A model generated the notes under the pieces. It saw nothing but the letters and a program-made list of their open reading frames with translations, was not told the origin of the DNA and made no database searches. From a virus: a DNA stretch of 27,077 nucleotides. Each line of letters begins with the position of its first letter. Position 1 is the stretch's first letter. Made by a program: the position numbers and the translations under genes. The stretch covers positions 1 through 27,077 of IMG/VR virus record IMGVR_UViG_3300030117_002970. One strand, written 5' to 3'. Below are positions 12,555-27,077 of this stretch, piece by piece.

Positions 12555-12692
12555 TTATATCAACTCAAATACTTTCGCTATCAACACCAACGACAGGAAG
12601 ATGTTCAATCCTGCCGCTATTGTCCTAAACAAGGCCATCCTAGCAAAATGGTCTTGCCCCCAATGTTCTATGTCATTTCCGTTCAGAACCAC
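12555..12692 (-). CDS. 45-aa small membrane protein
   Basis: Candidate GTG start overlapping the PolB-C stop; an in-frame ATG at residue 19 is the alternative and no clear ribosome-binding site decides. The C-terminal half is a hydrophobic helix (LFRTIAAGLNIFLSLVLIA). The stop abuts the next ATG. It fills an otherwise empty gap, which supports it. Confidence 0.45.
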   Translation of the reverse strand: MVLNGNDIEHWGQDHFARMALFRTIAAGLNIFLSLVLIAKVFELI

Positions 12693-13555
12693 TCCCCCAA
12701 CGTGCTTTGGCTCAAATCCCTCTTTATTTGCATTGTGTCCCAGCCCATCGCCCTGAAAACTGGCTCTGCCTTCTTGATGACTGAATCAGCATAGTGCGCC
12801 CAATCAGCCTGATACACAGCGAAGTCAGCCTCAGTCAAACCTGCCACATAGTTTGGCTTGACGTAATCCTGCTTGATGGGATGCCAATAGTTCAGATGAT
12901 TCTCCTTGACTCTGAGGAACAGATACGAGTCCTCGATGGGAATGTTGTTCACACTGTTGTAGTAAACAACCCCCTCGACACCAGCACCAACTGTTGGCCT
13001 CTTACCCTCAAGAGTCTGTAAGTTCATGTTGTTGCAACATGGCCCTTTAGTCAACTCATCCAATGTCTTCTTCCTCTTGCAATTACCACACTTGACCGAA
13101 AACCTAGCCTCTCTATATCGACTACGTTTCAATACTTCACTAATCGGAATCTGTCCTGATAAAACTTGATTATATCTATCTCTCAAAAAATCCGCTATTT
13201 CTTGTTCAGTATTATTCTCGACCCACATGTTCAGCACAGACAACTGAGTATCCTTCGCAAGTTTGGTTTCTGATAATCTCTTAGCAGTAAACCCCGTCAT
13301 CACGAATTCCTTCTCATCCAAGAACTTACCATCCTTCCAAGTAATCAGACCAGCGTTCCTGTTCTTCGTCGCTCCGACACCTAGACTCTCAAAGTATTTC
13401 TCAAACTCTATGACGACTGGATGCTCATTCAACTCTAGCAGATTAGGAAAGTAACTTCTAACGTGTTCGTTCAATTCCTCAAGCACGTTTTTTGCTTGCT
13501 CTACTGAATCAACAGTACAATAGATGGAATCAGTGTGTCCGTAAACTACCTTCAT
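12683..13555 (-). CDS. polB-C: Family B DNA polymerase, C-terminal half (motif C, thumb, PIP box)
   Basis: 290 aa. It begins MKVVYGHTDSIYC: polymerase motif C (usually YGDTDS) starts at residue 5. The first Asp is His here, but the catalytic Asp (D9) is kept. The following region matches the palm end and thumb (VIEFEKYFESLGV, KNRNAGLITW, FTAKRLSETKLAK). A small cysteine cluster (CGNCKRKKTL ... CCNN, residues 156-174) is inserted. The last eight residues, QSTLGEWF, fit the PCNA-binding consensus QxxLxxaa. It cannot work alone because motif A and B lie in the protein at 14740-16452; the halves should assemble. Start overlaps the 32-aa gene by ATGA. Confidence 0.85.
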   Translation of the reverse strand: MKVVYGHTDSIYCTVDSVEQAKNVLEELNEHVRSYFPNLLELNEHPVVIEFEKYFESLGVGATKNRNAGLITWKDGKFLDEKEFVMTGFTAKRLSETKLAKDTQLSVLNMWVENNTEQEIADFLRDRYNQVLSGQIPISEVLKRSRYREARFSVKCGNCKRKKTLDELTKGPCCNNMNLQTLEGKRPTVGAGVEGVVYYNSVNNIPIEDSYLFLRVKENHLNYWHPIKQDYVKPNYVAGLTEADFAVYQADWAHYADSVIKKAEPVFRAMGWDTMQIKRDLSQSTLGEWF

Positions 13556-13650
13556 TCTTCCTCATCTCCTAATTGTTTTTGCAGTTGCCTTGCATTTACT
13601 CGGCCTTGATTCAATCTATGCATCATAGACCAGTACATACCAGAGTTCAT
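13552..13650 (-). CDS. 32-aa microprotein in the PolB split region
   Basis: Reads MNSGMYWSMMHRLNQGRVNA, ending LGDEEE. ATGA overlaps at both ends. Its final GAG-GAA codons contain the ribosome-binding region for PolB-C. Not recognised; may mainly couple translation. Confidence 0.5.
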   Translation of the reverse strand: MNSGMYWSMMHRLNQGRVNARQLQKQLGDEEE

Positions 13651-13895
13651 TCTTCCTCACCCTGAGCGTTAAAAGGCCAACCCGCCTTCTGAGCGACTGT
13701 CATAGGTTTGTAAGTAGTAGCATACATTTTCTTCTCCAATAACTCGATTTGATACTCAATGATACCCTTCTCTTTGGCTAACCATCGAATAGATGTTGGA
13801 TGTACATCTCTTCTATTCAGGATACCAAGTGCTAACCTTATTCCTTCATGTTTCCCTTTCAGGTATTGGTAGTCTGCTCTTTCATCTATTTCCAT
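13647..13895 (-). CDS. Unknown 82-aa helical protein in the PolB split region
   Basis: Strong ribosome-binding site GGAGG eight bases before the ATG. Predicted helical throughout; charged (GIIEYQIELLEKKMYAT). No cysteine motif, membrane segment or HNH/GIY-YIG motif. Ends in GEEE with ATGA overlap to the next gene. Not recognised. Confidence 0.6.
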   Translation of the reverse strand: MEIDERADYQYLKGKHEGIRLALGILNRRDVHPTSIRWLAKEKGIIEYQIELLEKKMYATTYKPMTVAQKAGWPFNAQGEEE

Positions 13896-13971
13896 TTCTT
13901 TTCCTCCATTGTCTAAACTTTATCTTGTATGCTTTCTTTGCTCTGTAGTAATCCTTCCATGTCTGACTCAT
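13882..13971 (-). CDS. 29-aa highly basic microprotein
   Basis: Reads MSQTWKDYYRAKKAYKIKFR and then QWRKRNGNR; about ten Lys/Arg in 29 residues. GGGGAGG lies eight bases before its ATG. Overlaps the next gene by 14 bases. It could bind nucleic acid or an acidic partner. Confidence 0.45.
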   Translation of the reverse strand: MSQTWKDYYRAKKAYKIKFRQWRKRNGNR

Positions 13972-14145
13972 TCACTCTTCCTCCCCAAAACTCCTGTAGA
14001 CGATTCGTCTTAGTACTTCATTCTTGATGCCAAGGTAGGACTCTAGTTGCTCCTCTGATGCATCTCTCATGTATGTCTCCATCCATCGTAAGAGGGAGTT
14101 TAATTCCTCATACCTAGCAAAATCAATAGCCTCTTTTCTGTTCAT
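13972..14145 (-). CDS. Unknown 57-aa helical protein
   Basis: Starts MNRKEAIDFARYEELNSLLR and ends FGEEE. ATG overlaps the preceding stop (ATGA); GGAGGAGAAG is the ribosome-binding site. All-helical, no recognised family. Confidence 0.55.
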   Translation of the reverse strand: MNRKEAIDFARYEELNSLLRWMETYMRDASEEQLESYLGIKNEVLRRIVYRSFGEEE

Positions 14146-14321
14146 TCTATCTTCTCCTCCTTGTATTCATCCAACAAATGCCCTGCCCTTGCTTGCAATT
14201 CATAGGCATAACATTGTTTACAGTAATGAGTCTGTGACACTAGACCACTTCTTTTTGAGGGATATGTTCTGTGGCCTAAGTCAGTAACAGTTGCAGGTTC
14301 TTCACAATCATAACATTTCAT
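14142..14321 (-). CDS. 59-aa zinc-ribbon protein
   Basis: CYDC at residues 3-6 and CKQC at 34-37, spaced as a zinc ribbon, then a charged helix ending EEKIE. ATGA overlaps at both ends. The 3' end repeats the preceding gene's end (both stop in GAGAAGATAGAATGA), which carries the next ribosome-binding site. Confidence 0.6.
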   Translation of the reverse strand: MKCYDCEEPATVTDLGHRTYPSKRSGLVSQTHYCKQCYAYELQARAGHLLDEYKEEKIE

Positions 14322-14554
14322 TCTATCTTCTCCTTGTAATCGTCGTGGTCTTTAGGCAACTTGTGTTGTCTCCTATCCATCATGTTTCGTAGATACCCAC
14401 TGATGTTAGTTGCGCCCTTCCTGAATCTCTTCTCAGCAACCTTGTCTCCTTTAGGAACCATCTCAGCCATCAGACCATCTAACCATGCCCGGTCTCCAAC
14501 CCATTGCAGTATCTCATATTCTACATGTGCTACGCTTCTTGCTCTTCTTGTCAT
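14318..14554 (-). CDS. Unknown 78-aa basic protein
   Basis: Starts MTRRARSVAHVEYEILQW; Arg/Lys rich, with GYLRNMMDRRQHKLPKDHDD near the end. Despite the location inside a split gene there is no HNH, GIY-YIG or LAGLIDADG motif. ATGA overlaps at both ends. Not recognised. Confidence 0.6.
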   Translation of the reverse strand: MTRRARSVAHVEYEILQWVGDRAWLDGLMAEMVPKGDKVAEKRFRKGATNISGYLRNMMDRRQHKLPKDHDDYKEKIE

Positions 14555-14739
14555 CTATTTTCATCTCCTAATTTGAATATATCATTTTGATTTAAGTGTG
14601 TAAATGGATTTACCATTTTTATGTAGTCCTCTAACCAGTGGCCTACACAGGTTCTACACGCGAACCCATGTGCAGTCATACAACCCTCAGACGTTTCCGC
14701 CATCAACTTGCAGACCTTACATCTTGTCTTGTTTCCCAT
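14551..14739 (-). CDS. 62-aa zinc-binding protein
   Basis: CKVC at residues 7-10, C20, and CRTC at 28-31, a compact zinc-knuckle layout, followed by a hydrophilic tail. It starts one base after the PolB-N stop, with GGAG upstream. Not recognised further. Confidence 0.6.
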   Translation of the reverse strand: MGNKTRCKVCKLMAETSEGCMTAHGFACRTCVGHWLEDYIKMVNPFTHLNQNDIFKLGDENR

Positions 14740-16452
14740 TCAATTCATCTCCTTGACTTTGAATGCGGCTAGACGTATTGCTTCTCTCGCACTAGCAGTG
14801 ATGCAAGCGGCGAGTTCGACGTTAGCCCATCCGAAGCCTTGGTACGCGATGATACCATAGAAGGATGCCATGAGCCTCTTAACTGCAAGTTGGTTATTAT
14901 TCCACTTGTTGTAATCACTTTCAGACTCGGCATTCCTAGCCAATGATTTGTATTCATTCCTTAGTGTTTTCAACTCTAGAACTGCTCTTGGTAGTAAGCC
15001 AAGTTCATCCACTTTGAAATATTTCATATCATATTCCTTTACTTCGCTGAAATCTTTTGGTGTCCTGATATTGACTGCAAAGGCAGTTGGTTCTTCCGAT
15101 ACGGTCTCCCAACTGATATTCCTAGCGATTATCATAGATGGATACAATTGTGCGTAGTCGAATGCCGCGACACCTAAATGGAGTCCATTTGTGGACTCGC
15201 TGAGAGGGTCATACACCATCGCGCCGTCGTAGGACACCCGCTGTCCTTTCTCGCCCGTAGGAGCCTTCCAAGGGGCGTTTCGCATGAAGTATATTCCACC
15301 CATGTTGCTCGCATAGAAGCAAGCATCGAAGGGAGCCTTGAGAAGCCTTTGGAGTGATACGATTGCTTCTGTTGTGTGTTGCATTTCATCTATTAGGACT
15401 AATAGTTCAACGTCTACTTTAGCATACTCAACGTATCTCTGTGTATCCTCAAGCCACCCTCTTGCAAAGAACTCATTCTTATCAGGGAACTTTTCACTGA
15501 CTAACTTCTTGCGACCTAGTACAGTCTCAGAGATGTAGTCCAGTGACATCGATGCTAGTGTTCCTCTCTGTGCATCGTTCCATTGTCTCTCAAATGCCAA
15601 GTCAAGTGGAACACAAATCCTACCTTTGATTGGTTGTGCTATCGGAGAGTAGGAAGTTACCGTTCCCTCATCCATGGTTGGTTTGCCGTTCTTCCAAGAG
15701 ACACCAGTGACCTCGTTCCATGGTGACAGTAACTTGGGGTCAACCCCATGATGTACCATTCTCTCAATCAACTTCGGCAAATCGAACTTCCAACCGAACC
15801 AAGAGATAAGCATGTCAGGGTCATCATCTATCATATCAGATAAGAAGCATATCAGCATCTTCTCCTCAGAGTCAAACAGACGAGAAGTCGAAACGTCATA
15901 TCCTTGTTCCAAGAATGATTCCATCTCTGGTTGCCAAAAGTAAGTACGATACCTTTTCATGTAGTTATCATACACTACGATACAAGTGATAGCACCATCA
16001 TGCTCACCACCTTGCATCCACTCCATATCCCAATACCACTTACGCATCTCATACTCAGGCATCTCATCGATGCAATCAACAGCATACCTGTAGTGGTGTG
16101 AGACATCTGCCTCGTATGAAGCATGAAAGTTGTTCCTCAAACGATACGAGTACGATGGCCGTGGTGGACTCCAAGTCACCTTGACTAGTTCATCGCCTTC
16201 TAGGTTCTTGTAGTCACCGTGTTGGAATTTCACATCTAAATTGAAGTTCCCCCACTTATCCTTGAACCGCATTACTTTCTCTTGACCATCTTGATATTCA
16301 ATCCTGTCACCGTGTTCAGTCCACCCATGTTTCTTCTTCACGAAGAAGTGTGGTGGAAACTCATGGAAGGAGACCTCCTTGCTCTCTCTTTCAAGAGTCT
16401 TGGGGTCTCTCCATCTAAGTCCTATTCCTTCTTTCAGTTTGTCTATTATCAT
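14740..16452 (-). CDS. polB-N: Family B DNA polymerase, N-terminal half (exonuclease, motifs A and B)
   Basis: 570 aa. 3'-5' exonuclease: Exo I WDMEW (D142, E144), Exo II WFGWKFDLP (D224; the usual Asn is replaced), Exo III YAKVDVELL (Y343, D347). Polymerase motif A is FDYAQLYPS (D432). Motif B is KRLMASFYG (K525), where the usual Asn before Ser is Ala. The protein ends ITASAREAIRLAAFKVKEMN, exactly where a one-piece PolB would continue into the YGDTDS strand. The missing part is encoded at 12683-13555; the two halves join without loss or duplication, 860 aa in total. Neither half has both catalytic Asp residues. Encoded just after the clamp and a zinc ribbon. Confidence 0.88.
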   Translation of the reverse strand: MIIDKLKEGIGLRWRDPKTLERESKEVSFHEFPPHFFVKKKHGWTEHGDRIEYQDGQEKVMRFKDKWGNFNLDVKFQHGDYKNLEGDELVKVTWSPPRPSYSYRLRNNFHASYEADVSHHYRYAVDCIDEMPEYEMRKWYWDMEWMQGGEHDGAITCIVVYDNYMKRYRTYFWQPEMESFLEQGYDVSTSRLFDSEEKMLICFLSDMIDDDPDMLISWFGWKFDLPKLIERMVHHGVDPKLLSPWNEVTGVSWKNGKPTMDEGTVTSYSPIAQPIKGRICVPLDLAFERQWNDAQRGTLASMSLDYISETVLGRKKLVSEKFPDKNEFFARGWLEDTQRYVEYAKVDVELLVLIDEMQHTTEAIVSLQRLLKAPFDACFYASNMGGIYFMRNAPWKAPTGEKGQRVSYDGAMVYDPLSESTNGLHLGVAAFDYAQLYPSMIIARNISWETVSEEPTAFAVNIRTPKDFSEVKEYDMKYFKVDELGLLPRAVLELKTLRNEYKSLARNAESESDYNKWNNNQLAVKRLMASFYGIIAYQGFGWANVELAACITASAREAIRLAAFKVKEMN

Positions 16453-16604: not shown

Positions 16605-17417
16605 TCACCTCGATAGATAGGGTGCTTTGATGAGCAACCTGTTTGGTGAGTAGAACATAACAGGACTATCATCCTTTAGGAACACACTCACAAGCCCACT
16701 GACAAAACCACTGAATGGCCCAGTGAACTCAACAGTCGAATCAACACCATCGGCATTCACCATGTCAACGGATACCTCGACTCTATCAACCTCGGTCTTC
16801 TGAGAAGATATTGTGAGTTTGGTATCCCTTGGGTTTGAGTTTGGCAACACATCACCAGATGTGAAGTCAAACTTGTATCTAGCCAAGTTAAGAACATCAC
16901 ATGCCTTTGCCGCATCAACAGCATCATCCTCAAGAAGAGTAACCATACTATCGAACTGAGTCTTACCAAACTGCACTATACCCAACTGGCCCGCTCTCTG
17001 TGACCTCGATAGTGGGCCAAGGTCGTATTCCAATATCCTGTTTATCATATCCATGTGCGGATGTGTCAGTGCCTTGGACAGGGATGCCTTCTTCGTGCTG
17101 TCAGTCATTACGATGTGGTCGTTGCAGGTGAACTTCATATCACCGCTGAACACTTTCAGATGCTTGAGTACATTAGCGATGTCAATGATACATGCCCCTT
17201 GACTCACATCCTGCTCATCCGTAAAGTGATGGTCTATCCTACAAGCGACAGATGGACTTGCATTTGCAATCCTCAACTCACCTGTATCCTCGACTGACAT
17301 CATGGCATAATCAGAAAGTATGCCGTTCTTCGATGATGCACCATCGTAATACTTACCCTTTAGGTATACGTCTTCTAAGTAATTCTTCAATCTCTTTGCT
17401 TCTATTTCTATTTTCAT
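16605..17417 (-). CDS. pcn: PCNA-like sliding clamp
   Basis: 270 aa from ATG 17417 (ATGA overlap with the nuclease; a TTG lies two codons earlier). The size and two-domain beta-rich pattern match PCNA: ISDYAMMSVED-like strand, ACIIDIANVLKHLKVF helix, a linker near the middle, a second FGKTQFDSMVTLLEDDA helix, and an end of PVMFYSPNRLLIKAPYL resembling the PCNA terminal strand. Divergent from cellular PCNA. Context is strong: it lies just upstream of PolB, and the locus encodes RFC subunits and at least two PIP-box proteins. It should ring the DNA and tether polymerase, and perhaps ligase and nucleases. Confidence 0.75.
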   Translation of the reverse strand: MKIEIEAKRLKNYLEDVYLKGKYYDGASSKNGILSDYAMMSVEDTGELRIANASPSVACRIDHHFTDEQDVSQGACIIDIANVLKHLKVFSGDMKFTCNDHIVMTDSTKKASLSKALTHPHMDMINRILEYDLGPLSRSQRAGQLGIVQFGKTQFDSMVTLLEDDAVDAAKACDVLNLARYKFDFTSGDVLPNSNPRDTKLTISSQKTEVDRVEVSVDMVNADGVDSTVEFTGPFSGFVSGLVSVFLKDDSPVMFYSPNRLLIKAPYLSR

Positions 17418-18280
17418 AACCAACTCTCCTCGTTAGCCGCGTCACAGATTCCGTAGAAACTGCAACTCGCGCACGTTTTTGCGAAGTATTTCGTAGGGAA
17501 GATGCCTTGCTCATATGAGTGTAGCATCTGTGCGATACCCTTGATGACTGATGTGTAACTGCCTTTCTTCGCTGGCTCCACATACACGTAGTTCGATGCA
17601 GGATAGAACCAACCCCAATGTGTGATGGGTATGTTACCATCAAGCCCATGAGTGTCCAGTAGTTCTCTTGGACAGTTCTCAAACAACAACTGATAGAACG
17701 CCATCTCCTTTCTCATCATCGTCTTCTTGTAGTCTTTCCAAAGACCAGTCTTCAACTCCATGGGAATGTAAGACCCCTCCTCATAGAACATACGGTCAAT
17801 GATTCCCTGTAGATGAACCACGTAGTCCCTCGACAGTGGATACTTGTCTGTCGTGTCAGCATCTATCGTTATCTCTGCATCGAACATAATCTCATTCACA
17901 GCAGGTACGAAGTTCTCCAACATTCCCTCTTCTTTGGCCTCTAGAAACCTATTGGCCTCAAAGATGGATATTGTCTCATACATCTCACTGTAGTCATCTA
18001 TGGGATGTAGGCTCATGTTGTAGTTTACGAGTTCCGAGTAGGAGAGGTTCTCCGCCTTCTTTATGTCGAAGGCATTGAAGAAGTCCTCTCTAGCATTGTG
18101 AACAATCGTTCCCTTTGCCATTGCCTCGGTCTGGTCTTGAGGCAACCTCTCGATATAACTGAACTCGTACTTCTTTGGACACCACTGATAGGAACCGAAA
18201 GAAGACTTCGTTATTTTCAAAACCGGGGATTCCGGATTATCGTAGTTCTCAGGCAAGAACTGATACGTGTACTCTCTCAT
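17414..18280 (-). CDS. Cas4/RecB-like PD-(D/E)XK nuclease with Fe-S cysteines
   Basis: 288 aa from ATG 18280 (ATGA overlap, GGAAGGGG upstream). Catalytic layout of RecB-family nucleases: H61 (GTIVH), D162 (GIIDRM), E175-x-K177 (MELKTG), Q197 (YQLLF). C34 (YQWCPKKYEF) pairs with C270, C273 and C279 (CASCSFYGIC), the four-cysteine Fe-S pattern of Cas4 and AddB. There are no cas1/cas2 or CRISPR repeats nearby, so a role in viral DNA end processing for recombination or replication is more likely than adaptation. It sits between a RecA-like ATPase and the clamp, which fits recombination. Confidence 0.85.
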   Translation of the reverse strand: MREYTYQFLPENYDNPESPVLKITKSSFGSYQWCPKKYEFSYIERLPQDQTEAMAKGTIVHNAREDFFNAFDIKKAENLSYSELVNYNMSLHPIDDYSEMYETISIFEANRFLEAKEEGMLENFVPAVNEIMFDAEITIDADTTDKYPLSRDYVVHLQGIIDRMFYEEGSYIPMELKTGLWKDYKKTMMRKEMAFYQLLFENCPRELLDTHGLDGNIPITHWGWFYPASNYVYVEPAKKGSYTSVIKGIAQMLHSYEQGIFPTKYFAKTCASCSFYGICDAANEESWL

Positions 18281-22099: not shown

Positions 22100-22357
22100 T
22101 TATTCCTCCTCATCTAATTGTCCTATATACTGCCATTTCTCCTGACTAGGGTAGAACCTGAAATCAGGATGTATTCTGATTAGACTGGTTAGTTGTACGG
22201 CAGTAGTACCAGTCTGCTTGTGTATCTTACCATTTACACCAATGAAGTTATTCAGATAATATCTCATCTCCTTGAGATTGAATAACTTCCTTCCTTGTTC
22301 TTTACCGAACTGTATCATTGCTCTCTTGCGATATACATGCTTTATCGGTCCAGCCAT
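22100..22357 (-). CDS. Small winged-helix-like protein
   Basis: 85 aa from ATG 22357 (TGATG overlap; GTG three codons earlier). Basic N-terminus (HVYRKRAMIQFGKEQG), then a helix-turn-helix-like stretch (TTAVQLTSLIRIHPDF) and an IGQLDEEE end. The QL..LI..HPDF pattern resembles small wHTH proteins of marine archaea and their viruses. Tentative DNA-binding role. Confidence 0.45.
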   Translation of the reverse strand: MAGPIKHVYRKRAMIQFGKEQGRKLFNLKEMRYYLNNFIGVNGKIHKQTGTTAVQLTSLIRIHPDFRFYPSQEKWQYIGQLDEEE

Positions 22358-23208
22358 CACAGCCACTCCTCAAGAGTCCCTTGTGGAATGATTGGTGCAT
22401 ATCGCTTCTTTCTCTTCTTCTCACCCAACTTCAACATTCTACATTCAGTGTTGTCTAGTTTAGTTTTAGCATATTCCTTGAATTGTTCATCCTTCAACAA
22501 GTCCTTCAACAGATGGGCATCTGCTCTTCTCAGTCTCAACTTGTAGCATATCTTCGGTATCGTGGAATACGCCCTTCTCTTTGGCATGACCATCTTCCTC
22601 TGCATCCTACCATCGTGAGAGTACGCTAACATCTCATAGAAGTATTCGTTAGACCACCTTCTCTTCACATAGAAGTCAACGAAGCCTAGTTTGTTGGGAT
22701 GTATGTTTGGTGCTATCCAAGACAGTAGTTGTATGTCTGGTGGTTTGCTCACCATCAGCATGTCCTTGACTTCCTCTCTGTCTGTATTGCGAAGATACTC
22801 TCGTATCAATGAGAAGATGTCAACATCGAAGTTCACTGGTTCATCTGACCTTGGTGCTATCTCCTTAATCTCCTCAAGCATCGTCTTCTTCGTAGCCCTC
22901 TTCAATTGACAGATGCTCAGTAGTTTCTTGGACACATCCTTCTGATTGTCAGATAGCAGAACTACTTGTCCCCTATATTCCAGTATAGTCTTGCGTATTA
23001 GTTCGATGTTGGCCTTGTAATGCACCTCATCGATTATTATGCCACGCTCTGGTGGAATCGAATAGTTGTCAGTTATGTCATACTCGTTGGCATATACAAC
23101 TATCGGGTCATCGGAAACAAAGGTCATTGCCTTTGTCATCTTCTCTGTATCTGTTTTTCCTACTACTATTATTGCTCTATTCTGATTCATCGTTTTCATT
23201 AGGCTCAT
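22357..23208 (-). CDS. Divergent AAA+ ATPase with C-terminal PIP box, candidate RFC large subunit
   Basis: 283 aa; start at ATG 23208 supported by GAGGG six bases upstream (ATG 23190 is the alternative). GKT at 17-19 is a degenerate P-loop lacking the first Gly. Walker B GIIIDEVHY (D60, E61) is intact. A helical collar-like region follows, then a basic stretch (KKRKKRYAPI) and a terminal QGTLEEWL, which fits the PIP consensus. Archaeal RFC large subunits likewise end in a basic tail plus PIP box. Together with RfcS downstream, a viral two-component clamp loader is likely. Much shorter than cellular RfcL (~480 aa). Confidence 0.6.
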   Translation of the reverse strand: MSLMKTMNQNRAIIVVGKTDTEKMTKAMTFVSDDPIVVYANEYDITDNYSIPPERGIIIDEVHYKANIELIRKTILEYRGQVVLLSDNQKDVSKKLLSICQLKRATKKTMLEEIKEIAPRSDEPVNFDVDIFSLIREYLRNTDREEVKDMLMVSKPPDIQLLSWIAPNIHPNKLGFVDFYVKRRWSNEYFYEMLAYSHDGRMQRKMVMPKRRAYSTIPKICYKLRLRRADAHLLKDLLKDEQFKEYAKTKLDNTECRMLKLGEKKRKKRYAPIIPQGTLEEWL

Positions 23209-26338: not shown

Positions 26339-26557
26339 CTACTCACCCTCCATACAAAACTCGCAACAGTAGTTGTCGCTTATGGTAGACCTCCCATTAA
26401 CAACATAGAATGGTTGAACGTAGCGTTGCTTTGGTTTGTTGCGCTTCGTTGTCATCATAGCACCACAAGTGCCACACTTCCATATCTTCGCCTTGGTTGT
26501 TGTGTAACCAGCAAAGGTAATCGTACCATTATATCCCGCTAAAGTCACAGTTCCCAC
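26339..26557 (-). CDS. Zinc-ribbon protein
   Basis: 72 aa. CGTC at 28-31 and CCEFC near 64-68 form a zinc ribbon. The N-terminal part repeats GYNGTITFAGYTTT-like strands. The start is uncertain: GTG 26557 or GTG 26548, both within the lipoprotein gene's end. Function unknown. Confidence 0.55.
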   Translation of the reverse strand: MGTVTLAGYNGTITFAGYTTTKAKIWKCGTCGAMMTTKRNKPKQRYVQPFYVVNGRSTISDNYCCEFCMEGE

Positions 26558-26928
26558 AACCTGTAGACAACAGTGCAGTTGTAGTCATAGCCATGTAATT
26601 CTATCAGGTTCAATGTTACTTCACCCATAACAGGAGCGACTCCTGTTTGGAACCACATGTCTCCTATCAAGAAGTATGGCTTCTTCTCCACAGTCATGTT
26701 AACTGTCTCATTGTACAGTGTTACACTTGCTGAGAATATGTCTACCAACGTGTCGTTGCTACCAAATGAAATAGTAGGCATTGTGCTGTTGTTGGTATCC
26801 TCATACGTGAAGTTGTGATACTCCGTAATCCATACAGGGTCATTTCCCTCAACTGGCGGGTCAGGTATCATCTCTGCACATCCAGCAAGAGAGGATGATA
26901 CGAGAAGTAGTATTACTAAACTCCTCAT
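26545..26928 (-). CDS. Secreted lipoprotein with seven N-glycosylation sequons
   Basis: 127 aa. N-terminal signal peptide MRSLVILLLVSSSLAGC with lipobox LAGC (C17 to be lipidated and become residue 1). The mature part (~110 aa) is beta-rich and has seven N-x-S/T sequons (N39, N46, N47, N58, N73, N77, N117), fitting an archaeal glycosylated surface protein. Likely anchored outside the host membrane; possible superinfection exclusion or envelope role. GAGGAGG before ATG. Confidence 0.7.
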   Translation of the reverse strand: MRSLVILLLVSSSLAGCAEMIPDPPVEGNDPVWITEYHNFTYEDTNNSTMPTISFGSNDTLVDIFSASVTLYNETVNMTVEKKPYFLIGDMWFQTGVAPVMGEVTLNLIELHGYDYNCTVVYRLWEL

Positions 26929-26930
26929 GT

Positions 26931-27026
26931 CTATTCCTCCTCTTCGGTTTTCTTAGTAAAAGTAAACCCGTATTCTTCCAGCGTTGTTTGTCTTGTGTTT
27001 TCTCCGGTTATTCTTCTCATTTTCAT
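26931..27026 (-). CDS. 31-aa PIP-box-like microprotein
   Basis: Reads MKMRRITGENTRQTTLEEYG then FTFTKKTEEEE. GGAGG with ~4-base spacing precedes ATG 27026; a second in-frame ATG is at residue 3. QTTLEEYGF resembles the PIP consensus QxxLxxaa, except that Gly follows the Tyr. Basic flanks (RQ..., TKK) are typical of clamp-binding peptides. The start overlaps the upstream stop by ATGA. Probably a clamp-binding peptide; target (viral or host clamp) unknown. Confidence 0.5.
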   Translation of the reverse strand: MKMRRITGENTRQTTLEEYGFTFTKKTEEEE

Positions 27027-27077
27027 TCCTCCTCCTTTTTTATTTGTTCATCTATTTCTATTACAGACAGTTCCTCT
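27023..27077 (-). CDS. 3' end of a gene cut by the window edge
   Basis: Open frame to the window edge, ending EELSVIEIDEQIKKEEE then TGA, with ATGA overlap to the next start. The last codons carry the GGAGGAGG ribosome-binding site of the next gene. Too short to identify. Confidence 0.5.
   Translation of the reverse strand, partial: EELSVIEIDEQIKKEEE

Follow-up and report, generated by a model that had tools for sequence, protein, structure and literature searches.

A tiny conserved viral gene probably blocks or redirects the replication clamp during infection, judging from sequence comparisons among related contigs. In the window, by which we mean the whole stretch of DNA analyzed (27,077 nt, an entire IMG/VR virus record), this gene is a minus-strand ORF for 31 residues. 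Its conservation, selection and translation signals indicate that the ORF is a translated, selected microprotein, the only conserved part of which is a PIP-type peptide, R-Q-T-x-L-x-E-[FY]-G-[FLI].

The microprotein gene and its surroundings

The window is a magrovirus-type contig, in which the PolB, clamp, clamp loader and ligase genes occur together. Among its products are a family-B DNA polymerase in two pieces, an AAA ATPase of RFC-small-like type, a DNA ligase of the ATP-dependent kind and a nuclease with an ERCC4 domain, and the replication gene set of magroviruses (Aoguangviridae, viruses of Poseidoniales) matches that of the window (PMC10768690). The microprotein gene and the features around it are as follows.

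26545–26928, minus strand: lipoprotein-like gene downstream of the microprotein, with a signal peptide and the lipobox LAGC; two other lineages have it joined in frame to the PIP peptide
26931–27026, minus strand: PIP-like microprotein gene, 31 aa; ORF read from the letters, with family conservation in relatives
26964–26990, minus strand: core motif QTTLEEYGF, peptide residues 13–21; from the translation and position-by-position constraint
27028–27035, minus strand: GGAGGAGG, ribosome-binding-site-like sequence just 5′ of the microprotein start codon
27023–27077, minus strand: 3′ end of a JAMM-motif gene, with the tail EELSVIEIDEQIKKEEE before its stop; truncated at the contig end, complete in a close relative (L013:7247–7906)

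The ORF translates to MKMRRITGENTRQTTLEEYGFTFTKKTEEEE, followed by a stop codon, and is immediately preceded by AAAAGGAGGAGGA. Its ATG overlaps the TGA of the upstream JAMM-motif frame (ATGA), and the lipoprotein-like gene starts 2 nt past the microprotein stop. Since the window is the whole record, the ORF lies 51 nt from the contig end. Its position at the head of the replication run, pointed out in the first-pass annotation, is an effect of this contig end; in the relatives the sequence runs on upstream into genes for a JAMM-motif protein, a ThiF protein and a protein with a TFIIB-type zinc ribbon.

Loose PIP-like matches in small ORFs numbered five in the window versus 4.15 per shuffled window, and the microprotein motif alone is not above chance. 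Because such small ORFs are common by chance, relatives are needed to give the motif any meaning, and it is significant because it is conserved in them.

Conservation and selection of the core

The nine-codon core was found in 38 distinct DNA versions, 16 of which encode exactly QTTLEEFGF and differ from one another, on average, at 5.15 of the 27 nucleotides. Over the core, pN/pS was 0.16, where pN at the restricted positions is a lower bound because the collecting pattern itself (Q1 fixed; positions 2, 4 and 6–9 restricted) limited them. This pattern does not account for the saturation of synonymous changes, nor for L4 and G8 staying constant where alternatives were permitted. Across the 38 versions, Q1, L4 and G8 are invariant and T2, E6 and F/Y7 almost so, while positions 3 and 5 vary, like those of PIP boxes. 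The first-pass annotation would have counted a lack of conservation of the QTTLEEYGF core in relatives as a refutation; instead, a QTTLEEFGF-type core is kept in many divergent relatives under strong purifying selection.

When QTTL[ED]E[FY]G[FL] was searched as a DNA pattern over all IMG/VR contigs, 57 stretches matched, and the reversed pattern gave none. Around 55 of these 57 stretches lie genes related to those for the window's replication proteins or to the ThiF and JAMM-motif genes. The two exceptions (L129/L156) carry the core within one 252-aa protein with no magrovirus genes alongside and were set aside as apparent chance matches.

Translation signals are strongly enriched in the family. 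A ribosome-binding signal precedes 33 of 42 distinct family ORFs, compared with 13.5% of 2139 control small ORFs, and coupling of the start to an upstream stop was found in 26 of the 42, compared with 9.7% of the same controls. Both signals together occur in 60% of the family ORFs and 1.9% of the controls. A conserved element acting at the DNA level was rejected on the basis of the synonymous variation, the multiple neighbourhoods and the controls.

Distribution and neighbourhoods of the family

Scans with the window's ligase, lipoprotein and 133-aa neighbour gathered 93 loci. The core RQTTL[ED]E[FY]GF recurs in small ORFs of related contigs (mostly 19–52 aa). Many loci carry an ORF of 19–36 aa with this core upstream of the lipoprotein and 133-aa genes, for example MRVRMTMENSRQTTLEEFGFTFE, and the members of 22–23 aa end three residues after the core. 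Other loci encode two tandem copies of the core (MKMRQTKLSEFGFTFGERQTTLEEFGFIFE), an arrangement that is frequent in the family. In two lineages (L037/L041 and L043–L046), the peptide reads in frame into the signal peptide of the lipoprotein. In these fused forms, the clamp-type motif sits in the n-region of the signal peptide; the early start codon may have been a matter of assignment, yet L043 has no later in-frame Met that would keep the signal peptide.

When mapped on a tree built from the 133-aa neighbour, family members occur at 37 of the 62 loci that could be scored and fall in both deep branches; one clade of 17 rows has none. The other 25 of the 62 loci showed no family member, an absence that is uncertain since the contigs are fragmentary; because of these loci, the peptide does not seem essential for all magroviruses.

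At least five neighbourhoods occur. The peptide gene lies between a JAMM-motif gene and the lipoprotein and ligase genes; between the clamp loader gene and a 406-aa-type gene; after a clamp-like gene and PolB; or between ThiF and a JAMM-motif gene. In the fifth, the core is inside an ORF of 97–98 aa, with a RecB-type exonuclease gene on one side and a primase-like gene on the other. The settings beside the ligase gene, between the clamp loader and 406-aa-type genes and directly after PolB all belong to replication gene clusters. The conserved unit is the ten-residue module, not the genomic setting.

The ThiF/E1-like gene upstream of the peptide in the nearest relative of the window (L013:5848–6447) matches Pfam ThiF with an E-value of 1e-16. 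The protein at L013:7247–7906 has a JAMM-type HTHPFG..xSGTDW motif and no Pfam match. In many magroviruses both genes are kept close to that of the PIP peptide, which would suit a role in a system for ubiquitin-like conjugation or removal.

Comparison with PIP boxes

The window also encodes a candidate target of the microprotein and proteins with PIP or PIP-like tails of their own.

12683–13555, minus strand: C-terminal half of the split family-B DNA polymerase, with the canonical PIP QSTLGEWF at its end (12686–12709)
14740–16452, minus strand: N-terminal half of the split family-B DNA polymerase
16605–17423, minus strand: viral sliding clamp, the candidate target; AlphaFold2 pLDDT 92.2, Foldseek matches to archaeal PCNA
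22357–23208, minus strand: 283-aa protein without a Pfam match, with the C-terminal PIP-like tail QGTLEEWL (22360–22383)

In Foldseek, the window clamp groups with archaeal PCNA and bacterial beta clamps (E about 1e-11; TM-score by target about 0.7 for PCNA). It has no match to the PCNA models of Pfam and no reliable sequence match in the PDB, and its likeness to these clamps is structural only. Two helices are predicted in its inter-domain region. Viral clamps outside the nearest kin of the window clamp share 25–56% identity with it. The L132 protein upstream of PolB is likely a clamp, as suggested by its model; the fold is poorly predicted (pLDDT 57), and its better-predicted N-terminal part matches clamps.

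The first-pass annotation described the 31-aa ORF as carrying a PIP-like motif. The ORF proved real, but the motif is not canonical, since it reads Q-x-x-L-x-x-Y-G-F instead of Q-x-x-L-x-x-F-F. The Gln of canonical position 1 is invariant in the 38 versions, partly by construction of the search pattern, and is confirmed by synteny. The aliphatic residue of position 4 is always Leu, though Ile and Val were permitted, and the aromatic residue of position 7 is Phe in 34 versions and Tyr in four. The second aromatic residue, at position 8, is missing: all 38 versions have Gly there, though Val was permitted, and a hydrophobic residue follows at position 9. Gly at position 8 also occurs in Spd1 (IQGSLMDVGM; PMC6881253). 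In the clamp-binding motif of Pol IV, RQLVLGL, replacement of LGL by LF leaves binding unchanged (PMC11139829).

The viral PolB provides an internal comparison: within the window's group, almost all lineages end this protein with Q-x-x-L-x-E-W-[FWL]. Positions 1, 4, 6 and 7 are fixed in both the PolB PIP and the microprotein, which differs by the Gly at position 8 before its last hydrophobic residue. In 16 distinct versions of the PolB PIP, the entropy is 0 at positions 1, 4 and 7 and 0.34 at position 6; in the microprotein core, it is 0 at positions 1 and 4, 0.49 at position 7 and 0.30 at position 6. Position 2 behaves differently, with an entropy of 0.18 in the peptide, where Thr is fixed, versus 2.35 in the PolB PIPs. 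PolB consists of two ORFs in the window's group (12683–16452) and of a single ORF of 770–800 aa without a C-terminal PIP in the sister group (L132, L142, L154).

Proteins of 81–85 aa in L138, L140, L142, L167, L179, L182 and L141 have the core followed by a canonical PIP, QTKLTDFY or QTKLTDYF. This second motif has the aromatic residue at position 8 (L138/L142/L141) and is very like the p21 motif RQTSMTDFY, a high-affinity PIP (PMC6881253).

Comparison with known clamp-binding proteins and catalogued families

The C-terminal PIP peptide of p21 (CDKN1A), RQTSMTDFYHSKRRL, has in common with the viral peptide that it is short and disordered and carries R-Q-T-[ST]-[LM]-x-[DE]-F (PMC6881253). The isolated p21 peptide is able to block other PCNA partners (PMC6204406). 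On the other hand, position 8 of p21 is Tyr and the protein includes a CDK-inhibitory part, whereas the viral peptide has Gly and then Phe and usually nothing more. TIP, the Thermococcales inhibitor of PCNA, had been proposed as an analogy; only the idea of a small clamp-blocking protein carries over. In TIP, a non-canonical PIP continues into an amphipathic helix of 17 residues that is part of the breaking of the PCNA trimer (PMC6204406). The viral peptide has no counterpart of this helix, as many of its versions stop only three residues past the core, and the sequences give no sign that the microprotein is a TIP homologue.

Twort phage Gp168 is likewise a virus protein that disables the host clamp, but the site it fills is the DNA channel rather than the partner pocket (PMC11139829). 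SocB, a Caulobacter toxin, has a clamp-binding motif that docks in the partner pocket of the clamp and blocks replication elongation (PMC9690074); it is a bacterial toxin-antitoxin component acting on the beta clamp and is likened to the viral peptide by description. Like the viral peptide, the Pol IV motif is led by Gln and has a Gly separating its two terminal hydrophobic residues (PMC11139829), but it is part of a polymerase and serves a bacterial clamp, unlike the free viral peptide.

Searches of sequence collections gave little. Two of the peptides had no sequence match in the PDB, where the family profile hit only a cystatin (E 0.24), short queries having little power. The window peptide had no PHROGs match at 0.001, and one family member reached E 0.055 only. 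Two relatives, of 81 and 97 aa, were scanned against Pfam without a match. The phage collection contained no relative of the 133-aa neighbour; the best clamp-loader matches there were haloarchaeal tailed viruses such as HVTV-1, among whose few short annotated genes that were translated there was no such peptide. The magrovirus papers examined, among them PMC10768690, do not mention the peptide, and we found nothing relevant in the literature on PCNA-binding viral microproteins. A scan of a genome collection matched only magrovirus-like contigs filed under a Maricaulis MAG. These NZMJ01 contigs (L098, L099) carry magrovirus replication genes, L098 also with the peptide core, and are apparently mis-binned virus DNA.

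Possible roles of the microprotein

We consider that the microprotein has about an even chance of being a dedicated clamp-pocket blocking peptide with host PCNA as its target. The pocket in which a sliding clamp receives its partners would be filled by the Gln, the Leu, the aromatic residue and the final hydrophobic residue, and other PIP proteins would thereby be kept away, much as they are on human PCNA by the C-terminal peptide of p21. Because most members have nothing else attached, the effect would have to be the occupation of the pocket itself. With its PCNA blocked, the host would cease to replicate and repair its DNA, whereas viral forks would go on. Host PCNA seems the more likely target because the virus encodes a clamp of its own, which is very divergent, along with a loader, polymerase and ligase; magroviruses seem to depend little on replication factors of the host (PMC10768690). 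A host target also appears more likely from the core being near constant while the viral clamps diverge widely, an indirect argument because the PIP pocket may stay constant while the rest of a clamp diverges, and from position 2, nominally free but fixed as Thr in the peptide and variable in the PolB PIPs. We infer clamp binding, competition with other partners and the preference for the host over the viral clamp from these sequence patterns.

The main alternative, possible but rather unlikely, is that the peptide instead acts on the viral clamp and controls which partners occupy it, for example by displacing PolB for the ligase or nuclease, or supplies a clamp contact in trans where PolB has no C-terminal PIP. 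The peptide genes do adjoin those of the clamp, PolB, clamp loader or ligase, the L132/L171 peptide gene overlaps the PolB stop codon (ATGA), and Glu at position 6 is common to the peptide and the viral PolB PIPs. However, the window's group has both the PolB PIP and the peptide, and the core hardly changes while the clamps diverge strongly. PolB without the Q-x-x-L-x-E-W-F tail in L138, L141, L154, L139, L163 and L171, a loss seen in lineages whose peptide gene comes after PolB, would fit a contact in trans, but its association with the peptide is biased because those contigs were found through the motif. The Gly at canonical aromatic position 8 could also mean that the motif merely resembles a PIP box and docks onto a different host or viral hub. 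We regard this as quite improbable, given that its anchors coincide with those of the viral PolB PIPs, that a canonical PIP stands beside the core in one virus group and that the context is consistently one of replication.

The location of the peptide directly upstream of the lipoprotein gene, together with the fusions in L037, L041 and L043–L046, would suit a cis-acting leader peptide or an unlinked piece of the lipoprotein's signal sequence. This explanation is very improbable: the peptide also lies upstream of unrelated genes and after PolB, tandem copies exist, and conservation is at the amino-acid, not the DNA level; the leader peptide was rejected on the synonymous variation, the multiple neighbourhoods and the controls. 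A chance ORF, which the frequency of loose PIP matches in small ORFs would allow, has a practically negligible probability, being refuted by the conservation in the family, the empty reversed-pattern scan, the purifying selection and the translation signals.

With a probability that we place somewhat below even, magroviruses and related marine-archaeal viruses encode an undescribed class of free PIP microproteins, a portable ten-residue module that moves between sites, duplicates in tandem and becomes membrane-tethered through lipoprotein fusion, and that would shut off or capture host PCNA so that the virus replaces the host replisome through clamp switching. Should binding be confirmed, these peptides would be among the smallest virus-encoded clamp inhibitors, spread across a group of marine archaeal viruses that is abundant worldwide; the literature examined describes no factor by which this group takes over host replication. 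They would bear on how self-replicating archaeal viruses separate their own forks from those of the host and would offer a natural, minimal and highly conserved probe of archaeal PCNA. Gene callers readily overlook genes as short as these, at about 23 codons.

Other proteins of these viruses have PIP-like tails. Many relatives of the window's 283-aa protein also end in a PIP-like tail, Q..L..[WY][LF]. Near the peptide gene, proteins of roughly 98 aa have the PIP-like tails QTTLEGGW, QQQLGEF and SQATLEEGF (L009:6886–7182, L048:1719–2015 and an L011 ORF ending in SQATLEEGF), which may represent another small clamp-binding protein.
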